37,946 bases of DNA, taken from the NCBI GenBank assembly GCA_000990945.1, contig LBQR01000008.1, positions 1-37,946 on the forward strand, in the 5' to 3' direction. The notes beneath the pieces were generated by a model, which was not told the DNA's origin, made no database searches, and saw only the letters and a list, made by a program, of their open reading frames with translations. The position numbers and the translations under genes were made by a program. Positions 4,881 through 36,297 of this stretch are shown piece by piece. The stretch's first letter is position 1. Each line of letters begins with the position of its first letter. The DNA comes from Candidatus Moranbacteria bacterium GW2011_GWF2_35_54. GTDB taxonomy: Bacteria; Patescibacteriota; Minisyncoccia; Moranbacterales; UBA9337.

Positions 4881-5327
4881 ATGAAAAATAAAATTTTTTT
4901 GATTCTAATAATTTTCGTAGCGATTTTTGCTTTGAATTTTATTTGGGAAGCGACGCATTCTTTTTTGTATACTCCTCATTATTCTGGATTTAGCAATTTT
5001 ATTTTCGTGCACATTAAAGCTAGCTTGGGAGATGTGTTATTGATTGCGATAATGTATTTAAGCGGATTTTTTGTTTTTAAAAATAACCGATGGTTTTTGC
5101 TCAAAAGAAAATATCCTTATATGTTTTTAGTTTCCCTAGGTTTTTGTCTAGCGGTAATAGTTGAAAACTTTGCGCTGAAATCCGGCCGCTGGGTTTATAA
5201 TGATTGGATGCCGATTATTCCGCTTTTTAATATCGGATTAACTCCAGTTTTGCAATTAACTATTTTGCCACCTGTAATTATGTGGATAACGTTGAAATAT
5301 TATGAAAAATATTTCGGAGATAGATAA
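4881..5327 (+). CDS. Integral membrane protein, unknown function (148 aa)
   Basis: Several hydrophobic segments; long clean ORF. Confidence 0.7.
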   Translation: MKNKIFLILIIFVAIFALNFIWEATHSFLYTPHYSGFSNFIFVHIKASLGDVLLIAIMYLSGFFVFKNNRWFLLKRKYPYMFLVSLGFCLAVIVENFALKSGRWVYNDWMPIIPLFNIGLTPVLQLTILPPVIMWITLKYYEKYFGDR

Positions 5328-5449
5328 AAGCGCATTGTTTCTTGAATTCAAGCCAGTTTAATTTGTTAATTTCTGAAAAATAAATTATAATAATGTAGTC
5401 TCGAATCAAATAATAATATTGTAAAAAAATAAAAAATATGCAAGCAACT

Positions 5450-21530: not shown

Positions 21531-21652
21531 TCAGTTAAATAATGTAAATTACTGCTATTTAACGGTTTACCCCGTTAAATCAGAGTAGGTTTTGTTATTT
21601 AACGGGGCAACCCCAGTTAAATAGTGCGGGGTACCGCAATTTAACGGGGTAA
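21531..21652. repeat. Alternating inverted CCCNGTTAAATA / TATTTAACNGGG repeat cluster
   Basis: Six alternating copies between the HD gene and the ORF at 21659. Confidence 0.8.
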
Positions 21653-21658
21653 AGAAAT

Positions 21659-21862
21659 ATGGAAGAAGAAATTTTGAGGAAAATTGAAGATCAAAACAAG
21701 AAGATTGATGCAATCTGGATAAGTGTAGAAAAAACGAGAAAATATTTTTTAACTACTCTTATAATATCAGTAGTAATGACAGTTTTACCGTTGATTGGAC
21801 TACTGATTGTCATTCCGATAGTTTTGAGCAGTTTGTCGAAATCGATGGAAGGACTTTTGTAA
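21659..21862 (+). CDS. Small protein with coiled coil plus TM segment
   Basis: MEEEILRKIEDQNKKIDAIWISVEKTRKYFLTTLIISVVMTVLPLIGLLIVIPIVL. Confidence 0.7.
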   Translation: MEEEILRKIEDQNKKIDAIWISVEKTRKYFLTTLIISVVMTVLPLIGLLIVIPIVLSSLSKSMEGLL

Positions 21863-21889
21863 AATTTCAAATTTCAAATGTCAAATAAA
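21862..21889. repeat. 7-bp-period array abutting a stop codon
   Basis: AAATTTC|AAATTTC|AAATGTC|AAATAAA starting on the last base of the TAA. Confidence 0.65.
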
Positions 21890-21952
21890 TTTTTAATGAC
21901 TTAATGAAATAATTCAGGTCGTTTTATTTTTTTTAGTATGAGTGGCTGTTAT

Positions 21953-22040
21953 ATGCTAATATGTTAAAATGTTGGTATGCTAAGATGTTGGAATGTTAAT
22001 ATGTTAAAATGCTGACATGTTAATATGTTAAAATGATTAC
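21953..22040. repeat. 8-bp-period array, 11 phased ATG units
   Basis: ATG at 21953, 21961, 21969, 21977, 21985, 21993, 22001, 22009, 22017, 22025, 22033. Confidence 0.95.
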
Positions 22041-22062
22041 ACGGAGAGATGCTAGAGTGGTT
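22041..22062 (+). repeat. Partial tRNA-Ser(CGA) 5' duplicate
   Basis: acggagagatgctagagtggtt identical to 22392-22413. Confidence 0.9.
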
Positions 22063-22127
22063 TGCGCCCGAGGCGCATCCGCCTGGGGCGGAGAATAGAA
22101 CTTAATAATTCTTATATAATCAAAAAG

Positions 22128-22388
22128 ATGCATTACGTTTACATTTTATATAGTAAAAAATTAAATAAATTCTACGTGGGCGCAACAAGTGATTTGAAAA
22201 GAAGAGTTTCGGAACATAATATAGGAGCGAGTCAATTTACTTCCGCGGGGGTTCCTTGGGAGTTGGCATATTATGAAGCTTTCTTAAAAAAGAAAGACGC
22301 TATAAGAGAAGAGAATTTTCTAAAAACAGGAAAAGGGAGAGAAAGAAGAAAATATTTATTGGAAACTTATTTAGAAGATTTAAAATAA
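22128..22388 (+). CDS. GIY-YIG domain mini-protein
   Basis: MHYVYILYSKKLNKFYVGATSDLKRRVSEHNIGASQFTSAGVPWELAYYEAF...REENFLKTGKGRERRKYL; ORF track extends to 22062. Confidence 0.93.
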   Translation: MHYVYILYSKKLNKFYVGATSDLKRRVSEHNIGASQFTSAGVPWELAYYEAFLKKKDAIREENFLKTGKGRERRKYLLETYLEDLK

Positions 22389-22393
22389 TTTAC

Positions 22394-22480
22394 GGAGAGA
22401 TGCTAGAGTGGTTGAATAGGACGCTCTCGAAAAGCGTTGTCCGAGAAATCGGACCGAGGGTTCAAATCCCTCTCTCTCCT
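22394..22480 (+). tRNA. tRNA-Ser (anticodon CGA)
   Basis: ggagagatgctagagtggttgaataggacgctctCGAaaagcgttgtccgagaaatcggaccgagggttcaaatccctctctctcc; acceptor GGAGAGA/TCTCTCC; no encoded CCA. Confidence 0.93.
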
Positions 22481-22935: not shown

Positions 22936-23403
22936 ATGAATATTTATCTAAAAAAATTTACAGATAAAAAGTTTAAGAATCCAGCCAAAGCTCTTGATTT
23001 GGGAGCTGGTGATTTTAAGGACGTCCTTTATCTTAGAGAGTTGGGATGGGAATGTGAAGGGGTAGATAGAATAGGTGGGGTGGATTTGGAAAAAACGTTT
23101 AAATCAGAAAATGGTCCGTATGACCTGGTTTTCTCCAACTATCTTTTACATAAATTGAAAAATAAGGAAGCTTTGGCGGAAACGGCCTTTGAAAATCTTA
23201 GGAAAGGCGGTTGGCTGTTTATCCATACTTTTGAAAAATCCGATAAAATAAGTTTTCACGGGGTTGACATTGAAGAAATAAAGCGTATACTGAAAGGCCC
23301 TGGCTTTATTGATATAGAATATAAGATATTTGATGTATATGATGAAGAAGTCGGACATAAACATTGGCACAAAATTTTGGAGGTAAGTGCTAAAAGACCT
23401 TAA
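22936..23403 (+). CDS. Class I SAM-dependent methyltransferase
   Basis: AKALDLGAGDFKDVLYLRELGWECEGVDRIGGVDL...YDLVFSNYLLHKL...LRKGGWLFIHTFEK. Confidence 0.85.
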   Translation: MNIYLKKFTDKKFKNPAKALDLGAGDFKDVLYLRELGWECEGVDRIGGVDLEKTFKSENGPYDLVFSNYLLHKLKNKEALAETAFENLRKGGWLFIHTFEKSDKISFHGVDIEEIKRILKGPGFIDIEYKIFDVYDEEVGHKHWHKILEVSAKRP

Positions 23404-23473
23404 GGAAAGTTCTTTAAAAGACAACACATTTTCGATGTTGTCATTGACAATAAAAAAGGAGGTGATGATAAAA

Positions 23474-23572
23474 GTGGCTAAGACCAAAGCTGAGGCTAAA
23501 AAAGACGCAAGCGCCAAAAAGCCGGTGAAAAGGGTTCGCATAGGCAAAGGTAGCTGCACTATCTGTGACTGA
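23474..23572 (+). CDS. Putative RiPP precursor peptide MAKTKAEAKKDASAKKPVKRVRIGKGSCTICD (GTG start; alternative ATG 23465)
   Basis: Very strong SD aaaggaggtgat directly upstream; short, basic leader-like N-terminus, C-terminal GKGSCTICD; immediately before a radical SAM/SPASM gene. Confidence 0.7.
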   Translation: MAKTKAEAKKDASAKKPVKRVRIGKGSCTICD

Positions 23573-23593
23573 AACCACGTTACTCAACTCAGA

Positions 23594-23626
23594 GGGGGTA
23601 AACGCTCATGCGTTACTCCCTCGTTT
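23594..23626 (+). promoter_or_regulatory. Hairpin between peptide and radical SAM gene
   Basis: gagggggtaaacgc-tcat-gcgttactccctc, no T-tract; possible attenuator or mRNA-processing hairpin. Confidence 0.6.
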
Positions 23627-23645
23627 AATAGATGGAGGTTTTAAA

Positions 23646-24725
23646 ATGGAATGCGTAGAAAAAACTCCAACCTTGTCGGTGGAGACGGAAGAGGCTATCT
23701 ATGAGATTGAGTTTGCTCAGATTCAGATCGAAATAACCGGTCGTTGCAATATGCATTGTCAGCACTGCCGAGCCGCGCATGAAGTGCGGAAAGATATGCC
23801 GATCGACCAGATTATAAAGATTATCCGCTTTGCCCGGCGGTTCAGCCCCAACTACAAAGAAATTGTGGTTTCCGGGGGTGAACCATTGATCCATCACGAT
23901 TTTTTCAATGTGTTGGAAGCGGTTAGGAGAAATGGGGGAGAATTTGTGACACTCACCACGAACGGTTCGCTCTTGACCGAAAAACATCTCTCTTTCATAA
24001 GAGATCTGGAATTTCAGCGCTTTATTCTATCTGTTAGTTTGGACAGTCTTGATGCTGGAATACATGATAATTTCCGATCTTTTCCTGGCGCTTTTGAAAA
24101 AGCTCTTCGGTCCGTAAAGATGATCGTGGAAGCCGATATCCCGAACGTCATGACTTCCGTCAGGACAACTCTGCGTCCAGAACAGATCGGGGAAATGGAA
24201 GATATTGTGGATTTTGTCTTCTCCTTGGGAGTCAAGCGTTCAAGCCTGTCTCCGATCCATCCATCCGGGCGCTCGATAGAACGCCCCGATCTCTGGATGA
24301 GTAAAGAACAGAAAAAGAAGTTCATGGAGAATCTCTACCGGCTCAAAGGCAAGTATCCCAATTTTCAAGTGAGCACGAGCGATCCCTTGAAATGCCTGTT
24401 TAGGGGCTATCATGATGTTGGCGGTGAAAACGAATTGGTTTTTGACGGATGCTCGGCGGCGGCGGTGACTTTCAATGTTGGGGCCGATGGAACCATGACT
24501 CCTTGCGCTCTTTTGAATATTCCAATGATGAATGTTTTCGACCTTTCTATCGAGGAAATCACTGAGAGTTATCGTAATAACGAAATCGTAAAAAACATGC
24601 TGGACATGAATCTCAAGGGCAAGTGTGGCGTTTGTCCGAAGAAATATCAGTGTGGCGGTTGTCGGGCCAGAGCCCATGTCCGCAAAGGTGATTATCTGGA
24701 GGAAGATCCGGATTGCTGGCTTTGA
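23646..24725 (+). CDS. Radical SAM/SPASM domain protein (probable peptide maturase; ORF track starts at 23565)
   Basis: CNMHCQHC motif, SGGEPLIHHDF, SPASM-type CGVCPKKYQCGGCRARAHVRKGDYLEEDPDCWL; SD ggaggt before ATG 23646. Confidence 0.92.
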   Translation: MECVEKTPTLSVETEEAIYEIEFAQIQIEITGRCNMHCQHCRAAHEVRKDMPIDQIIKIIRFARRFSPNYKEIVVSGGEPLIHHDFFNVLEAVRRNGGEFVTLTTNGSLLTEKHLSFIRDLEFQRFILSVSLDSLDAGIHDNFRSFPGAFEKALRSVKMIVEADIPNVMTSVRTTLRPEQIGEMEDIVDFVFSLGVKRSSLSPIHPSGRSIERPDLWMSKEQKKKFMENLYRLKGKYPNFQVSTSDPLKCLFRGYHDVGGENELVFDGCSAAAVTFNVGADGTMTPCALLNIPMMNVFDLSIEEITESYRNNEIVKNMLDMNLKGKCGVCPKKYQCGGCRARAHVRKGDYLEEDPDCWL

Positions 24726-24748
24726 AGGTATTATAAAAAATAAGTTTG

Positions 24749-24780
24749 GGCGTTGCGTCTCTCGCAACGCCTTTTTTCTT
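24749..24780 (+). terminator. Rho-independent terminator
   Basis: ggcgttgcg-tctct-cgcaacgcc followed by ttttttctt. Confidence 0.9.
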
Positions 24781-24865: not shown

Positions 24866-25042
24866 ATGGCGCTAAAAAAATCAGAAGAAAAAAATACAAG
24901 AAAGTTAGCCAAAATTGGTAAACAATCAGTCGGTGTAACTCTTCCAATTGAAGAAGTGCGCAAAATTGGTTGGCGGGTAGGGCAAAAGCTCACCATCAAG
25001 CGTATCCGCGGAGGGTTTGAAATTAAAGATTGGAGAAAATAA
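24866..25042 (+). CDS. AbrB/MazE-like (SpoVT-AbrB) DNA-binding protein, 58 aa
   Basis: MALKKSEEKNTRKLAKIGKQSVGVTLPIEEVRKIGWRVGQKLTIKRIRGGFEIKDWRK* (not in the ORF track because of its length). Confidence 0.8.
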   Translation: MALKKSEEKNTRKLAKIGKQSVGVTLPIEEVRKIGWRVGQKLTIKRIRGGFEIKDWRK

Positions 25043-25050
25043 TTTTATGA

Positions 25051-27990
25051 ATGAAAATAATGAGCATAAGTAATAGTGAAAAAATAGCTGACAAATTAGT
25101 TAGGGAATATCTAGAGAACTGGAGAAATGTTTATAAAGATTTTTCTTTAGGTATTGAACTGATATTAAAAACATTGTTATTAAATAGTTCAGTTAAGAAA
25201 TACCAGACATCCTGTCGCGAAAAAGATTATAGGAAGCTTAAGAAGAAAATAATACATAACGGATATGAAAAATTAAGCCAAGTAAAAGATTTGGCAGGAT
25301 GTCGGATTCTTTTTTATGTTCAGGATGATATTGAACTTTTCAAGAAATATCTTTTTGAAGAATTTAAGGTTGAAAGCACAAAATTACATTATCCTTTTTC
25401 GAACGAAAGTAAAAATAAGGTATATTACGGCGAACACTTATATATAAAGCTAAAAGAGAACCGATTAAAAATTCCTGAATATAAGAGATTTAAAAATTTA
25501 CTATGCGAGATTCAGTTGACAACGGTTCTTTATCATTCTTCATCAGAATTAGAACATGACATCAGCTATAATCCACCGGAAAAGGTGGGGACTTTTTATA
25601 AAGAGGATATTGATATATTAAAAAACAGATTTGCAGATGTTTTGAAGAAATATATTAAGCCGGCTCAGGGCGAATTCGATGATATTTGGAAAAGATTTAA
25701 TTCAATTTCTGAAGGAAAAAGAATGTTCGGATACGATTTTACTCATAGAATCCTAAATCCGAAATCTATTAATGATTTATATTCAGATCTTAATTTTCTA
25801 AAAAACAAAGTAGAATTATTCAAAGGGAAGCTACCAGACAATATTGATCTATTTAAGATCATCAGAAATTCTCTGGAAGTATCAAAAAAATTTAAAGCAG
25901 TTGATATAGACACGGCATTTGGGAAAGTAAAAGGTCAACGATACAATGACGTTCTTTCTTTATGTCTAGAAATAATAAATTATTTGAAATTCAAATATTC
26001 AGAGGAATTTTTTGAACTACTGATAGAGCTATACGAGAATAATAAAAAAGACCAAAAAAAGAAGATAGTTGAAATATTGGCCTCATTTTCAAAAAATGAT
26101 TATCATATTCTTCAAAAAATTGGATACCAACCGAAAAAATTCATTCTGGGTAAAATGGAAAAATGGAATAAAAAGGAATTGGCGGAGAGAACGGAGATTG
26201 TTTTGAATGTGAGCAAAAATTTATTAAATCCCTCCTTTGAGGGGACTTCCATGAAAGACTACAAGACTATGGTTTTCTCTTCTGGTCCTTTAAAAGCGAC
26301 AGTAGAATTGACGAATATCAGAAAGAGAACTTTGAAATTATTGATGGGTCTTTATTTTGGTATTAAAAGAAATGAACAACGAAAAGAAATTTTGTCAACA
26401 ATAGACATAGCCAGTCAGACTCCTCATCAGGGTGTTTATGGTGATGACATGGAGGAAATGGCGAGAAATAATGCAAAATATATTACTGATTTTTTCATCA
26501 AAATACTTCCCAAATCAAATAACGAAATAATCAGCAAGATCGAAGAACAGATGAAATGGCTTTATAAAAGATTTGGTGAGAAAAAATTGCCGGCGCTTGA
26601 AAAATTAAAGAATTCAATTGATAACAAAAAAGAATATAAAATATATCGAGTGCTTGTGGGATATGAAGATAGATTTTCAGAAAAATTGAGTTGGGAAGAG
26701 TGCAGAAAAGTTAGGACAGAAAAGATTAATGAATTTATTTGCGAAATAAATGAAGAGAATTTTGCAAAATGGAAGAGAAGAATTTTTGATATAATTCATA
26801 ACTATAGAATTTCTGATCCGGGAGGCTATCAATATCTCAATATTTTTCTCAGTGAACTTGCCAAGCAAAAACCGGAGTTTGCTTTAAAAATTTTAGAAAC
26901 TAATAAGCGAATACCGCTACCATTTCTGGTCGCGCTTATATCTGGTTTATTGAGGAGCAATTTAAAAGATAAGGGGCGAGGAATAATACAGGAATGGATA
27001 AAAAAAGGAGTTAATTTAGATATTATTGCCAATGTATTCAGTTATGATGTGGAGGTGGATAAAGAAATTGTATTGTTACTGTTTAAGAAGGCCAGGAAGA
27101 AAAAGAATATAAATGCATTAAATGGTATAATTAGAATTCTTGCTAATAATTATCCAAAGTTTGAGAATAAGAAGTTATTTTTAGATACAATTAGAGACCT
27201 TACTTTCCTTAAAAATCATTTTTGGGTAAATGATGTTTGGCATCAAAAAGATTGTATCTTAGATTCATTATCAGAAACAGATTATCGAGTTATACTAGAT
27301 AATTTATTGCTTTCTTCTAGAATTGATTATCATACGGAGGAAATTCTCGCCCATATTGCAAAAAGCAACCCAAAATTAGTAGTAGATTTCTTTTTTAGTA
27401 GGATTAAAATTTATGAAAATAAAAAGAAGAGCATGTCGTATGATGCTATTCCTTATGATCTTCATGAATTGGAAAATGTATTGGTAAAGGATGAGAATGT
27501 GGATGTTGTTATAAAAGAGGTGTTAAAATGGTTCGAAAAGGATGGGTGGATGTATGGTTGGAGTGCTGCAAATTTATTACAGATAATTTTTCCGGGCTTC
27601 GGTGAAAAGTTTGAGAGAGCTTTGCTGGATTTAATTAAAGAAGGCGGGGAAAATAATGCCAAAATAGTTGGATCTATTTTAGATAAGTATGATGGCCAGA
27701 TATTTTTGCATAATGTATGTAAGGAATTTATTAGGAAATATCCAAGTACAAAAGATTACACCAACGAGGTTATTCACATCCTATCTAAAACTGGTACCGT
27801 AATGGGAGAATATGGATTTATGGATGCTTATAAGAAAAAGAGAGAAGAAATCCAAATTTGGAAAAAAGAGAAAGATAAAAAAATACTATCTTTTCTTAAG
27901 GAATACGAGAGTTATCTAGACAAACAGATTAAATATGAACAAAAAAGAGCGGACGAACAAATAGAATCGAGAAAGAGGAATTTTGAATAA
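25051..27990 (+). CDS. 979-aa protein: N-terminal RelA/SpoT nucleotidyltransferase-like domain plus large helical C-terminal region
   Basis: QVKDLAGCRILFYVQDDIELFKKYL, KVYYGEHLYIKLKENR, LCEIQLTTVLYHSSSELEHDISY. Confidence 0.8.
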   Translation: MKIMSISNSEKIADKLVREYLENWRNVYKDFSLGIELILKTLLLNSSVKKYQTSCREKDYRKLKKKIIHNGYEKLSQVKDLAGCRILFYVQDDIELFKKYLFEEFKVESTKLHYPFSNESKNKVYYGEHLYIKLKENRLKIPEYKRFKNLLCEIQLTTVLYHSSSELEHDISYNPPEKVGTFYKEDIDILKNRFADVLKKYIKPAQGEFDDIWKRFNSISEGKRMFGYDFTHRILNPKSINDLYSDLNFLKNKVELFKGKLPDNIDLFKIIRNSLEVSKKFKAVDIDTAFGKVKGQRYNDVLSLCLEIINYLKFKYSEEFFELLIELYENNKKDQKKKIVEILASFSKNDYHILQKIGYQPKKFILGKMEKWNKKELAERTEIVLNVSKNLLNPSFEGTSMKDYKTMVFSSGPLKATVELTNIRKRTLKLLMGLYFGIKRNEQRKEILSTIDIASQTPHQGVYGDDMEEMARNNAKYITDFFIKILPKSNNEIISKIEEQMKWLYKRFGEKKLPALEKLKNSIDNKKEYKIYRVLVGYEDRFSEKLSWEECRKVRTEKINEFICEINEENFAKWKRRIFDIIHNYRISDPGGYQYLNIFLSELAKQKPEFALKILETNKRIPLPFLVALISGLLRSNLKDKGRGIIQEWIKKGVNLDIIANVFSYDVEVDKEIVLLLFKKARKKKNINALNGIIRILANNYPKFENKKLFLDTIRDLTFLKNHFWVNDVWHQKDCILDSLSETDYRVILDNLLLSSRIDYHTEEILAHIAKSNPKLVVDFFFSRIKIYENKKKSMSYDAIPYDLHELENVLVKDENVDVVIKEVLKWFEKDGWMYGWSAANLLQIIFPGFGEKFERALLDLIKEGGENNAKIVGSILDKYDGQIFLHNVCKEFIRKYPSTKDYTNEVIHILSKTGTVMGEYGFMDAYKKKREEIQIWKKEKDKKILSFLKEYESYLDKQIKYEQKRADEQIESRKRNFE

Positions 27991-28640: not shown

Positions 28641-30230
28641 ATGAAATCTTTTTTGTTGAAGAAAAAAGTTTTGGCTATTTTAGTGGCAATTTTGGTTTTA
28701 GCTGGATTTTTACGTTTTTATAATCTAGATGAAAAATCTTTTTCGGCGGATGAATTTTTGGGCGTAAATACGGCTTATGGATATTTAAAAACAGGCGAGT
28801 GGAGAAGATGGGATTTTAATTTAGAAAAACCTCTTGCAGACAATGCTTATTTTAAAACTTTTTTCGATTTCGATATTTGGGGTGGTGGACCAGAGACTTA
28901 TACTCGCGCTTGGATTTATAATTGGCAAGTAGCACAGTCTTTGAGATTTTTGCCTGACGGCGAAACCTGGTCTTATCGAGTGGTAAGCGTGCTATGGGGA
29001 ATTTTTTCAGTATTAATTATTTATTGGGTGGCTTTTAAATTTACCAAAAATAAAACTATTGGAGTTATCGCCGCACTTTTGCTGGCGCTAAGCATCGATG
29101 GGATAGAGTTTTCTCGCAAGATGAGAATGTATGCGATGTTTATGCCGGTTTTTCTGATCTTTAGCTATGTGGCTTTTAATTTTTTTGAGTCAAAAATTAA
29201 AAGTAAATGGTCGGCAATAAACAAACTTAATGAAAAAACAAAACTTAATTTCGTTTTTTTGGTGCCAGTTATTTTACTGGGATTTCTGAGCATGCATCTG
29301 CATCTCTTGGCGGCTAATTTTGTGTTTATCGGTTTGATTTATTTTTTAGCGATGGGTACTATTACTTATCGAAAAACTAAAAATTTCAAAAATCATTATT
29401 TATTTTATTTTTTGGTGGCAGTCGCTATCGGAATAATTGTAAATTTAAAAGGTAACGCTCTTTTGAGTTCACTGAGCTGGGAAAATCATTTTTCTTATTT
29501 TGAGAAATCTTTTTCCGATTATGGCAATATCTTGGTGGCCGGTGCGCTATTGATTTTGGGAGCGTATCATTTAATTAAAGACAAAACTCAAGAAGGTGTT
29601 TTTGTTGTAACCAATTATGGATTTATTTTATTGGGAGCAATGTTTCTCTGGAATAGAAATGCTGGCGAGCAATATATATTTTTTGCCAAACCCTTTCAAA
29701 TAATTTTGATAGCTATTGGGATTTGGGCAATGGCTAATTTTTTCAAAAATAATTTAAAAAAATATAATCAAAAAGTTTATTTAGTGACTATAATATTTTT
29801 ATTAGGCACTGTTATCAACTGGAGTTATTTTTGGGCAAGTGAAAATGCATATATTCAAACTTCGAGTTCCCCAAATCCTAATTATCGGGATGTTTTTAGC
29901 TTTGTCGTTAGCAAGCGTACCAAAGACGATGTATTGGTGACGAGAAATTTCAGAAATTTTTATTGGCAAGGGGCTAAAATGAATGTAGTTTCTTTGGGAG
30001 GAGAAAGGGCTGAAGAATCCGAAAAAAAAATAGAGCTAGAGAAATTAATGGAAATTGTAAACAAAAATAATAGCGGTTGGATAGTTTATTCAGATAATGA
30101 TGCCACTTTTCTTTCTAAAGAGGCTCAGGATTACATAGATAAAAATTTAGAAAAAATAAATAATTTAAAAGTAAGGGGTCCTATCAGTGTATATTATTGG
30201 AATAATTCTATTCCTGTAAGGCCAAATTAA
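28641..30230 (+). CDS. PMT/ArnT-like membrane glycosyltransferase
   Basis: FLRFYNLDEKSFSADEFLGVNTA and many TM segments. Confidence 0.85.
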   Translation: MKSFLLKKKVLAILVAILVLAGFLRFYNLDEKSFSADEFLGVNTAYGYLKTGEWRRWDFNLEKPLADNAYFKTFFDFDIWGGGPETYTRAWIYNWQVAQSLRFLPDGETWSYRVVSVLWGIFSVLIIYWVAFKFTKNKTIGVIAALLLALSIDGIEFSRKMRMYAMFMPVFLIFSYVAFNFFESKIKSKWSAINKLNEKTKLNFVFLVPVILLGFLSMHLHLLAANFVFIGLIYFLAMGTITYRKTKNFKNHYLFYFLVAVAIGIIVNLKGNALLSSLSWENHFSYFEKSFSDYGNILVAGALLILGAYHLIKDKTQEGVFVVTNYGFILLGAMFLWNRNAGEQYIFFAKPFQIILIAIGIWAMANFFKNNLKKYNQKVYLVTIIFLLGTVINWSYFWASENAYIQTSSSPNPNYRDVFSFVVSKRTKDDVLVTRNFRNFYWQGAKMNVVSLGGERAEESEKKIELEKLMEIVNKNNSGWIVYSDNDATFLSKEAQDYIDKNLEKINNLKVRGPISVYYWNNSIPVRPN

Positions 30231-34650: not shown

Positions 34651-36297
34651 GTGTATATGATAAAAAATCAAACAACAAATGAGCAGCTTGAATTATGGAT
34701 AGAGATGTCCGAAGGGTTAAACTTGGAATTCAAAAAGGCGAAAAATAATTTTAATAAGAAAAAAGATTTACCTGATTACTGTGCGGCATTAGCAAATGAA
34801 GGTGGTGGAAAACTAATTTTAGGAATTTCTAATGATCGAGAAATCAGTGGAACAAAAGAATTTATGGGTACGATTGATACACTATCCCATGAATTATTAA
34901 ACAGTATTAGTATCAGAGTAGATGTCGAAGAAAAATATTATAAAGAAAAAAGAATACTTATTTTTCATATCCCAAGTCGTTCAATTGGTACTATCGTAAA
35001 GTCAACTGGAAATTATAAATATCCAATGCGCGCGGGTAGTTCCTTAGTTGAAATGACTCAAAATAAAATTAAAGAAATTTTAAATGAAGTAGAGCTTGAT
35101 TTTTCGTCCAAAATAGTTAATGGGTTTACATTGTCAGATATAGATAATGAGGCGATAAATAATTTTAAAAAACTTTGGGCACGGAAACAAAATAAAGAAG
35201 AATATCTAACGTTTTCAATGGAAAAAACGTTGCGGGCAATCGGCGTTTTAACTGATGAAGGATTAAATAATGCTGGATTGATTCTTTTTGGTAAAAAAGA
35301 AAAAATTAATAAAATAATTCCCGGCGCAGAAATTATTTTCGAGTGGCGACAGAGTCAAAAAATTAGACATGATTTTAGAATTGATTGGCGGGAACCATTT
35401 TTTAAAATCTATAATGAAATATGGGATGTTATTAATGCTAGAAATTTGAGATTTCCTTATCATGAGGGTTTTATACAACGAGAAGTTTTTGCATTCAATA
35501 AAGAGTCAGTCAGAGAGGCGCTGGCTAATGCGATAGCACATAGAGATTATAATATTCAATCAGCCTCCATATTTATTAAAGTCACGCCGGAAAAGATTTC
35601 CATACAAAGTCCTGGAGGATTTATTAAGGGAGTTAATCAAGAAAATATTTTAGAAAAATCAGAGTGGAGAAATAAGCGTATTGCAGAAATTTTCCAAACA
35701 GCTGGGCTCGTAGAGCGTTCGGGGCAAGGAATGGACATGATTTTTGATAATACAATACGAGAAGGAAAGGGTATGCCTGATTTTTTAGGAACTGATAATT
35801 ATTCGGTTGTTTTGAATATTCCAGCAAAAGTTAAAGATGAAAATTTTATAATATTTTTAGAAAAGATAATAAATCAAAGTCAAATCGCATTGTCTTTTGA
35901 AGAAATTTTAGAGTTGGAGAAAATTAGAGAAAAACAAGAGATTCAGAATCTAGAATTTCGTAATAAATTTCTGGAACTCAATCTAATTGAGAATATTGGA
36001 AAAGGTCGTGGATCAAAGTACATTCTTTCTAGCAAATACTATGAATACGAGGGAAAACTTTGGAAACATACGCAACTTGTGGGAGCTTCGCGAGATGAAA
36101 AAAAGTTACTCATTTTGAAACATTTGAAAAAAGTTGGTAAAGTGGGTGCTCAAAGAAGCGATTTTCACAATATTTTCACTGAAAATATAAGCAAAAAAGA
36201 AATGGATAATATCCTTCAGGAATTAAGAAGAAATGATGAAATATTTGCCCGAGGTAAGGGCTTGTCGAGTTATTGGTTTTTAAATAAATTTAATTAG
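34651..36297 (+). CDS. AlbA_2/RecG-like ATP-binding transcriptional regulator-type protein
   Basis: LNLEFKKAKNNFNKKKDLPDYCAALANEGGGKLILGISNDREI...REALANAIAHRDYNI...RSGQGMDMIF. Confidence 0.9.
   Translation: MYMIKNQTTNEQLELWIEMSEGLNLEFKKAKNNFNKKKDLPDYCAALANEGGGKLILGISNDREISGTKEFMGTIDTLSHELLNSISIRVDVEEKYYKEKRILIFHIPSRSIGTIVKSTGNYKYPMRAGSSLVEMTQNKIKEILNEVELDFSSKIVNGFTLSDIDNEAINNFKKLWARKQNKEEYLTFSMEKTLRAIGVLTDEGLNNAGLILFGKKEKINKIIPGAEIIFEWRQSQKIRHDFRIDWREPFFKIYNEIWDVINARNLRFPYHEGFIQREVFAFNKESVREALANAIAHRDYNIQSASIFIKVTPEKISIQSPGGFIKGVNQENILEKSEWRNKRIAEIFQTAGLVERSGQGMDMIFDNTIREGKGMPDFLGTDNYSVVLNIPAKVKDENFIIFLEKIINQSQIALSFEEILELEKIREKQEIQNLEFRNKFLELNLIENIGKGRGSKYILSSKYYEYEGKLWKHTQLVGASRDEKKLLILKHLKKVGKVGAQRSDFHNIFTENISKKEMDNILQELRRNDEIFARGKGLSSYWFLNKFN

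Follow-up and report, generated by a model that had tools for sequence, protein, structure and literature searches.

Radical SAM/SPASM enzymes encoded next to a cysteine-containing peptide are the norm among RiPP systems. The closest described examples are the sactipeptide and ranthipeptide maturases SkfB, CteB and PapB (freyrasin), each of which acts with a cysteine-containing precursor; PapB uses a C-x-x-x-D spacing (PMC9413430). Other relatives include the SuiB-type enzymes, which introduce C-C cross-links (streptide), the GeoRSP, ACGX, SynChlorMet and TIGR04053 radical SAM/SPASM families, several of which are peptide-associated, and the heme synthesis enzymes NirJ2 and AhbD, some AhbD proteins also having a complete SPASM motif (PMC10452713). 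In CPR bacteria, RiPP loci are known in the form of graspetide clusters, and some loci of their branch 2 contain SPASM and UbiE-like methyltransferase genes (Makarova et al. 2022, PMC8939145).

Here we describe a cassette from Candidatus Moranbacteria bacterium GW2011_GWF2_35_54, located in a 37,946-nt stretch of DNA (hereafter, the window; contig LBQR01000008.1), whose precursor family, enzyme clade and minimal RRE-free architecture are new among the NCBIfam and Pfam models and the papers that we found, although SPASM RiPPs as such are a known kind. Neither the peptide nor the enzyme clade fits any model in the two databases, and a full-text literature search, which did find the graspetide loci (PMC8939145), gave no account of this peptide. 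SkfB and CteB are among the top structure matches of the enzyme, and the C-x-x-x-D spacing of the peptides resembles the CX3D motif of PapA (PMC9413430), but the cassette has neither an RRE nor a recognisable leader, its precursors are 21–37 aa long, the Asp is not universal, and the enzyme scored 74.7 bits against the PapB-type model NF047865, whose cut-off is 340. SuiB-type enzymes gave the highest TM-score (0.74), and a four-Cys AuxI site is likely in the clade of the window enzyme (group A) too, but identity is about 17% and the cassette peptide lacks Lys-x-x-x-Trp. GeoRSP, ACGX, SynChlorMet and TIGR04053 are the best or near-best NCBIfam relatives, but the enzyme reached at most a third of their curated cut-offs and the precursors are unrelated (no match). 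Scores for NirJ2 (TIGR04055, 152.5 bits) and AhbD (TIGR04545, 148.7 bits) were comparable and likewise below the cut-offs (500 for both), but the cassette enzyme is instead linked to a conserved peptide gene. Finally, graspetide loci are defined by an ATP-grasp ligase and have a different precursor motif; no ATP-grasp hit or recognisable ATP-grasp ORF was found at the cassette loci, in the part of the neighbouring genes that was scanned.

Reading of the ORFs on the + strand at 22936–24725 gave a methyltransferase, a 32-aa peptide and a radical SAM/SPASM enzyme (Table 1). Pfam recognised Methyltransf_23 (E 3.7e-14) in the first ORF and Radical_SAM (E 5.3e-25) in the third, with a SPASM match just under the gathering score, and nothing in the peptide. 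Translation from the GTG at 23474 yields VAKTKAEAKKDASAKKPVKRVRIGKGSCTICD; an in-frame ATG at 23465 lies only 2 nt from the core of the Shine-Dalgarno sequence, which makes the GTG the likelier start. The elements named in the preliminary description (methyltransferase, 32-aa peptide, enzyme with CNMHCQHC, strong Shine-Dalgarno sequence and terminator) are all present in the window, and the Cys-rich C-terminus that it called SPASM-like contains the complete SPASM motif. Its statement that the region is GC-rich holds for the peptide (49%) and enzyme (47%) genes but not for the methyltransferase gene (35%), which is like the flanks (34%). It mentioned neither the hairpin between the peptide and enzyme genes nor the further cassette that this genome carries outside the window, both of which are described below.

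Table 1. Features of the cassette (positions in the window)
Feature	Position	Strand	Basis or detail
Class I SAM-dependent methyltransferase, 155 aa	22936..23403	+	LDLGAGD SAM motif; invariant C-terminal HxHWH
boxA-like GTTCTTTAAAA, leader 5′ of peptide gene	23409..23419	+	sequence; like elements in other loci
Strong Shine-Dalgarno AAAGGAGGTGAT for peptide gene	23455..23466	+	sequence
Precursor peptide gene, 32 aa, GTG start, ending ...VKRVRIGKGSCTICD	23474..23572	+	conserved in 11 loci; motif pattern
Conserved C-terminal block RIGKGSCTICD (putative recognition site and modified core)	23537..23569	+	codon-position analysis
Stem-loop between peptide and radical SAM genes (putative attenuator-type partial terminator)	23592..23622	+	shuffle test; window p 0.027
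Shine-Dalgarno GGAGG of radical SAM gene	23634..23638	+	sequence
Radical SAM/SPASM enzyme (putative maturase), 359 aa, no RRE domain, ATG 23646	23646..24725	+	Pfam, homologues, AF2 model, Foldseek
CNMHCQHC, CX3CX2C ligands of SAM-cleaving cluster	23745..23768	+	invariant in 15 sequences
Eighth Cys C250 of radical SAM enzyme, group A-specific	24393..24395	+	column check, 15 sequences
SPASM motif C269-X12-G-X4-C287 ... C327-X2-C330-X5-C336-X2-C339 ... C357	24450..24716	+	column check, 15 sequences
Rho-independent terminator at cassette end (24748–24772 and T tail)	24748..24780	+	sequence

Homologues 58–67% identical to the window enzyme were found in ten further genomes from several classes of the same small-genome phylum (the copy in G170 is truncated and that in G975 is interrupted by the contig end), and at all ten loci a peptide of 21–37 aa, the shortest being that of G913, was encoded directly upstream, 51–93 nt before the enzyme gene. 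Group A peptides end in [VA]RIGKGSC[TSGA]IC[DS], G112 having the variant VRIGQNGCRTCDTNG. Conservation of the peptide beside homologous enzymes, on which the RiPP proposal depended, was thus observed at 11/11 group A loci (G112 with its variant core) and 4/4 loci of a related group B, so that a short precursor-type gene is linked to a modifying-type enzyme gene at all 15. The core had been proposed to be SCTICD, preceded by a Lys-rich leader; the conserved block is larger (RIGKGSCxICD), and the N-terminus, variable in length and sequence between loci, is Lys/Arg-rich only in some. Among the last 12 codons of ten loci, 4, 4 and 10 variable columns fell at codon positions 1, 2 and 3, respectively, and this concentration at third positions indicates selection on the protein. 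Of 380 genomes, 5 matched a DNA pattern for IGKGSxCxIC, and these are precisely the ones that have a GKGSC-type enzyme; every match lay inside the cassette, whereas the reversed control pattern gave 0 matches, showing that the motif is not due to chance. Because each draw took a sample of about 380 genomes, the frequency of the cassette, about 2% of genomes, is approximate; beyond the phylum, the search consisted of a single pattern-based scan.

The second, divergent cassette of the same genome (G000:C33, L024:3579-4810) encodes the peptide MKTAKKIRRIRISKCRCFTCDSN and an enzyme 40% identical to that of the window, and has no methyltransferase gene. It belongs with three other genomes to group B, whose peptides end in LKCRC[FM]TCD[SV]N; the ending TCDTN in G112 links group A to group B, and both groups are supported clades in the tree (98 and 100). 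In a group C, exemplified by G520, the peptide is ...VVVGKNTCSTSGSYK, the ending also being given as ...GKNTCSTSGSYK; for G215, of the same clade, no peptide was visible near the contig end. The first Cys has a constant position in groups A, B and C, and it is the only one that group C keeps. More distant enzymes (E < 1e-40; G349, G381, G506, G591, G600, G612, G624 and G951) were considered as family members and rejected, as they have no GKGSC-like peptide. In G520, another SPASM enzyme gene precedes a small ORF that is rich in Cys and ends in CECSDCNCCDGDCYDG (L045:6709-8223). In four genomes, nucleotidyltransferase-like ORFs lie beside radical SAM genes that belong to group B or are more distant (L048:2082-2966, L049:4795-5628, L052:6328-7074 and L053:1850-2605), and the three of these that were scanned gave Polbeta/NTP_transf_2 matches.

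The CX3CX2C motif and the seven-Cys SPASM motif were invariant in 15 enzyme sequences, the last Cys being missing only in a row that ends before that column. An AlphaFold (AF2) model of the enzyme (pLDDT 88) gave SkfB, SuiB and CteB as best Foldseek matches, followed by BlsE, PqqE and AnSME, and in a profile search of PDB sequences SkfB, CteB, PqqE and AnSME ranked first. NCBIfam scores were spread over NirJ2, TIGR04053, AhbD, GeoRSP and ACGX and lay far below the curated cut-offs (395–500), indicating that the enzyme is in none of these families. A grouping with non-peptide enzymes had been named as a possible objection; the best structural neighbours, SkfB, SuiB and CteB, are peptide maturases, and the HMM scores place the enzyme between the heme enzymes (NirJ2, AhbD) and RiPP maturases. 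Pfam detected only Radical_SAM, Fer4_12 and SPASM and no RRE (PqqD-like) domain, and the stretch before the radical SAM domain is about 25 residues long. A reading of the enzyme as a viperin (pVip) was discarded, as it rests only on the radical SAM core shared in the PADLOC and Foldseek matches and leaves both the peptide and the SPASM domain out of account.

Taken together, these data make it likely that the 32-aa peptide is a ribosomal precursor and the adjacent SPASM enzyme its dedicated maturase, the two constituting a RiPP family with chemistry at a Cys motif. Against a maturase stands the fact that the highest-scoring curated families include NirJ2 and AhbD, heme enzymes that do not act on peptides; in addition, neither a transporter, protease or immunity gene nor any conserved further partner gene is linked to the cassette loci. 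Since the enzyme lacks an RRE and the N-terminus of the peptide is rich in Lys/Arg to a variable degree only, we infer that the enzyme would recognise the conserved C-terminal block of the peptide itself. Its 5′-deoxyadenosyl radical would then abstract a hydrogen, the peptide would be oxidised, and a thioether would join the first Cys to a residue close by, such as one in C-x-x-x-D, with a mass change of about −2 Da for each link.

As judged from the sequences, the modification probably takes place at the cysteines, but its nature is less certain. A thioether from the first Cys is favoured over other SPASM outcomes, with a chance that we put at about even, and we leave the acceptor unclaimed, because the first Cys is kept in all three groups and C-x-x-x-D is missing in some peptides. 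Cys-X3-Asp/Glu is present in most of them, but Asp cannot be the universal acceptor, as it is replaced by Ser in G304 and group C lacks both the second Cys and the Asp. All nine group A enzymes have an eighth Cys, C250, where those of groups B and C have Tyr or Phe. An open three-Cys AuxI site is linked to ranthipeptide maturases, whereas AnSME and SuiB have four-Cys AuxI sites (PMC10452713); by comparison, the site may be closed by four Cys in group A and left open, with three Cys, in groups B and C. The thioether step is weakened by this eighth Cys, which could close AuxI. The strongest competing explanation, less probable than the thioether and still a serious contender, is that the cysteines are modified but not cross-linked (formylglycine-like oxidation, epimerisation or decarboxylation) or that the link is C-C or C-O: the eighth Cys of group A resembles the four-Cys AuxI of AnSME and SuiB (PMC10452713), both enzymes are among the best structural matches, and group C keeps a single Cys, but thioether or thiol chemistry would suit the two or three closely spaced Cys of groups A and B, and SuiB ranks no higher than SkfB and CteB.

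Peptides can also be consumed to make redox cofactors, as are PqqA for PQQ and MftA for mycofactocin, and the cassette product might likewise be a small cofactor instead of a secreted peptide. A precursor of down to 21 aa, a near-invariant C-terminus and the lack of a transporter agree with this, and the models of PqqE and mycofactocin MftC are distant relatives of the enzyme. We nevertheless regard a cofactor as unlikely: no dehydrogenase, peptidase or PqqD is linked to the cassette, the distribution is sporadic, unlike that of a core cofactor, and the core sequence differs between groups A, B and C.

The methyltransferase gene has homologues (47–58% identical) in eight related cassettes, and its product was modelled (AF2, pLDDT 93) as a TehB-like class I methyltransferase fold. 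The invariant C-terminal H-x-H-W-H of the family could bind a metal. The gene adjoins the peptide/enzyme pair in 8/9 group A loci that have both flanks on the contig, upstream or downstream depending on the genome, and in G138 it lies directly behind the degraded C-terminus of a group A enzyme (CGGCRARAFVEYNDYLAPDPHCWL). Among the 380 genomes searched with the motif pattern, the methyltransferase occurred in seven, the group A enzyme in six and both in five (hypergeometric P = 2e-9), indicating that the methyltransferase, for which a tailoring role had been suggested earlier, is a genuine partner in the cassette. By contrast, a Campbellbacteria group A locus lacks it despite having the same core peptide, as does group B, and its GC content is unlike that of the enzyme gene, as might be expected of a mere neighbour with no role in the cassette; the co-occurrence and the fact that the gene travels with the pair, on either side of it, make such a neighbour improbable. 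The methyltransferase is therefore best read as an optional tailoring enzyme, present in the majority of group A cassettes, where it would methylate the product. In G388, from the window's own family, the neighbours of a methyltransferase 55% identical are a peptide ending in GPICSICCDCCLCETGGV and a radical SAM enzyme with no more than 29% identity, suggesting that the methyltransferase can serve other peptide/enzyme pairs. The remnant of the group A enzyme in G138 is part of a cluster (L067, 10-6389) that also encodes three methyltransferases and two further radical SAM/SPASM proteins, of which one has a PqqD-like N-terminus, and that contains a small ORF rich in Lys/Arg (MSKARKLSKKKIRNSS...).

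Folding predicted a hairpin between the peptide and enzyme genes at 17/17 loci, with a stem better than those of shuffled sequences at 16/17. The stems are near-universal and their sequences are unrelated between loci, which fits partial termination: the hairpin would lower read-through and keep the peptide in excess over the enzyme. We consider it very unlikely that the short ORF is instead a regulatory leader, in which stalling at the conserved C-terminus controls the hairpin and the enzyme acts elsewhere, for although the order short ORF, hairpin, gene is that of an attenuator and the conserved part of the peptide adjoins the stop codon, a search for a mutually exclusive antiterminator found at no locus an upstream segment whose pairing with the hairpin's 5′ arm beat that of shuffled sequences (lowest fraction 0.10), the distance from stop codon to stem varies from 7 to 38 nt, and both a SPASM enzyme beside a Cys-containing peptide and hairpins 3′ of precursor genes are common in RiPP operons. 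Leaders of several peptide genes contain a boxA-like [GT][CT]TCTTTAA (window 23409; L016, L021, L046, L047, L050, L045 and L026), in many cases after a promoter-like TTGACA; it was present upstream of 6 of 15 independent peptide genes against a simulated mean of 0.25, and was not significant in the window alone.

The peptide and enzyme genes are inherited and transferred together, with RIGKGSCxICD conserved as protein. G407, from the window's order, and G817, from another class, share a 2.2-kb block with 83.5% nucleotide identity, which begins in the promoter region, ends shortly after the methyltransferase gene and has different flanks in the two genomes. G380, from the same genus as the window, retains the genes up to tRNA-Ser(CGA) and those from the glycosyltransferase at 28641 onward, with other genes in between, indicating that the cassette occupies a variable segment behind the tRNA gene. 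Both results support the acquisition suspected in the preliminary description. The two- to three-gene unit, which includes no transporter or protease, would thus move between Patescibacteria.

Inverted repeats surround the cassettes of G407 (L021:173-245 and 2200-2272; 73 nt at 81%) and G817 (L046:3311-3338 and 5308-5335; 28 nt at 93%), and are possibly the ends of a non-autonomous mobile element. A direct- or inverted-repeat boundary was sought around the window cassette and none was found. A further palindromic tract lies next to the G407 cassette; its reading as an attC-like site was abandoned, as it did not match the attC consensus by eye and nothing in a literature search spoke for it. 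Phage, plasmid and IMG/VR searches returned only remote radical SAM proteins (24–29% identity) and 0 matches to the peptide pattern, arguing against a viral or catalogued plasmid carrier. In the window, a GIY-YIG ORF (22012–22391) that is absent in G380 is inserted at tRNA-Ser, and a second copy of the beginning of the tRNA gene lies to its left (22028–22062 against 22379–22413). Palindromic and 8-nt tandem repeats occupy 21560–22040 and have many interspersed copies in G380. The variable segment also contains (24866–27990) a possible toxin-antitoxin or defence pair: a 58-aa MazE/AbrB-like ORF and, after it, a protein of 979 aa that has a RelA/SpoT domain at its N-terminus (Pfam 5.6e-10) and matches the PADLOC candidate PDC-S33 (1e-11). 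Further downstream (34651–36297), a Schlafen/AlbA_2 and RecG-C-like protein gave weak PADLOC Argonaute-associated matches.

RiPP biosynthesis in Patescibacteria has been little described, although graspetide loci are known (PMC8939145). The present cassette is small enough to be expressed whole, and natural variants of it exist: the three groups, forms that have or lack the methyltransferase, and enzymes with predicted four- or three-Cys AuxI sites; small, variable and transferred as a unit, it offers a compact test of how a SPASM enzyme recognises its substrate without an RRE. Somewhat speculatively, it may be a leaderless, RRE-free minimal RiPP system in which a very short cationic peptide is turned by a new SPASM clade into a product for dealings with host cells or rivals, through a cross-link or cysteine chemistry unseen in known SPASM systems. 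The cassette is also a lead to a molecule exchanged repeatedly among tiny, host-dependent bacteria.
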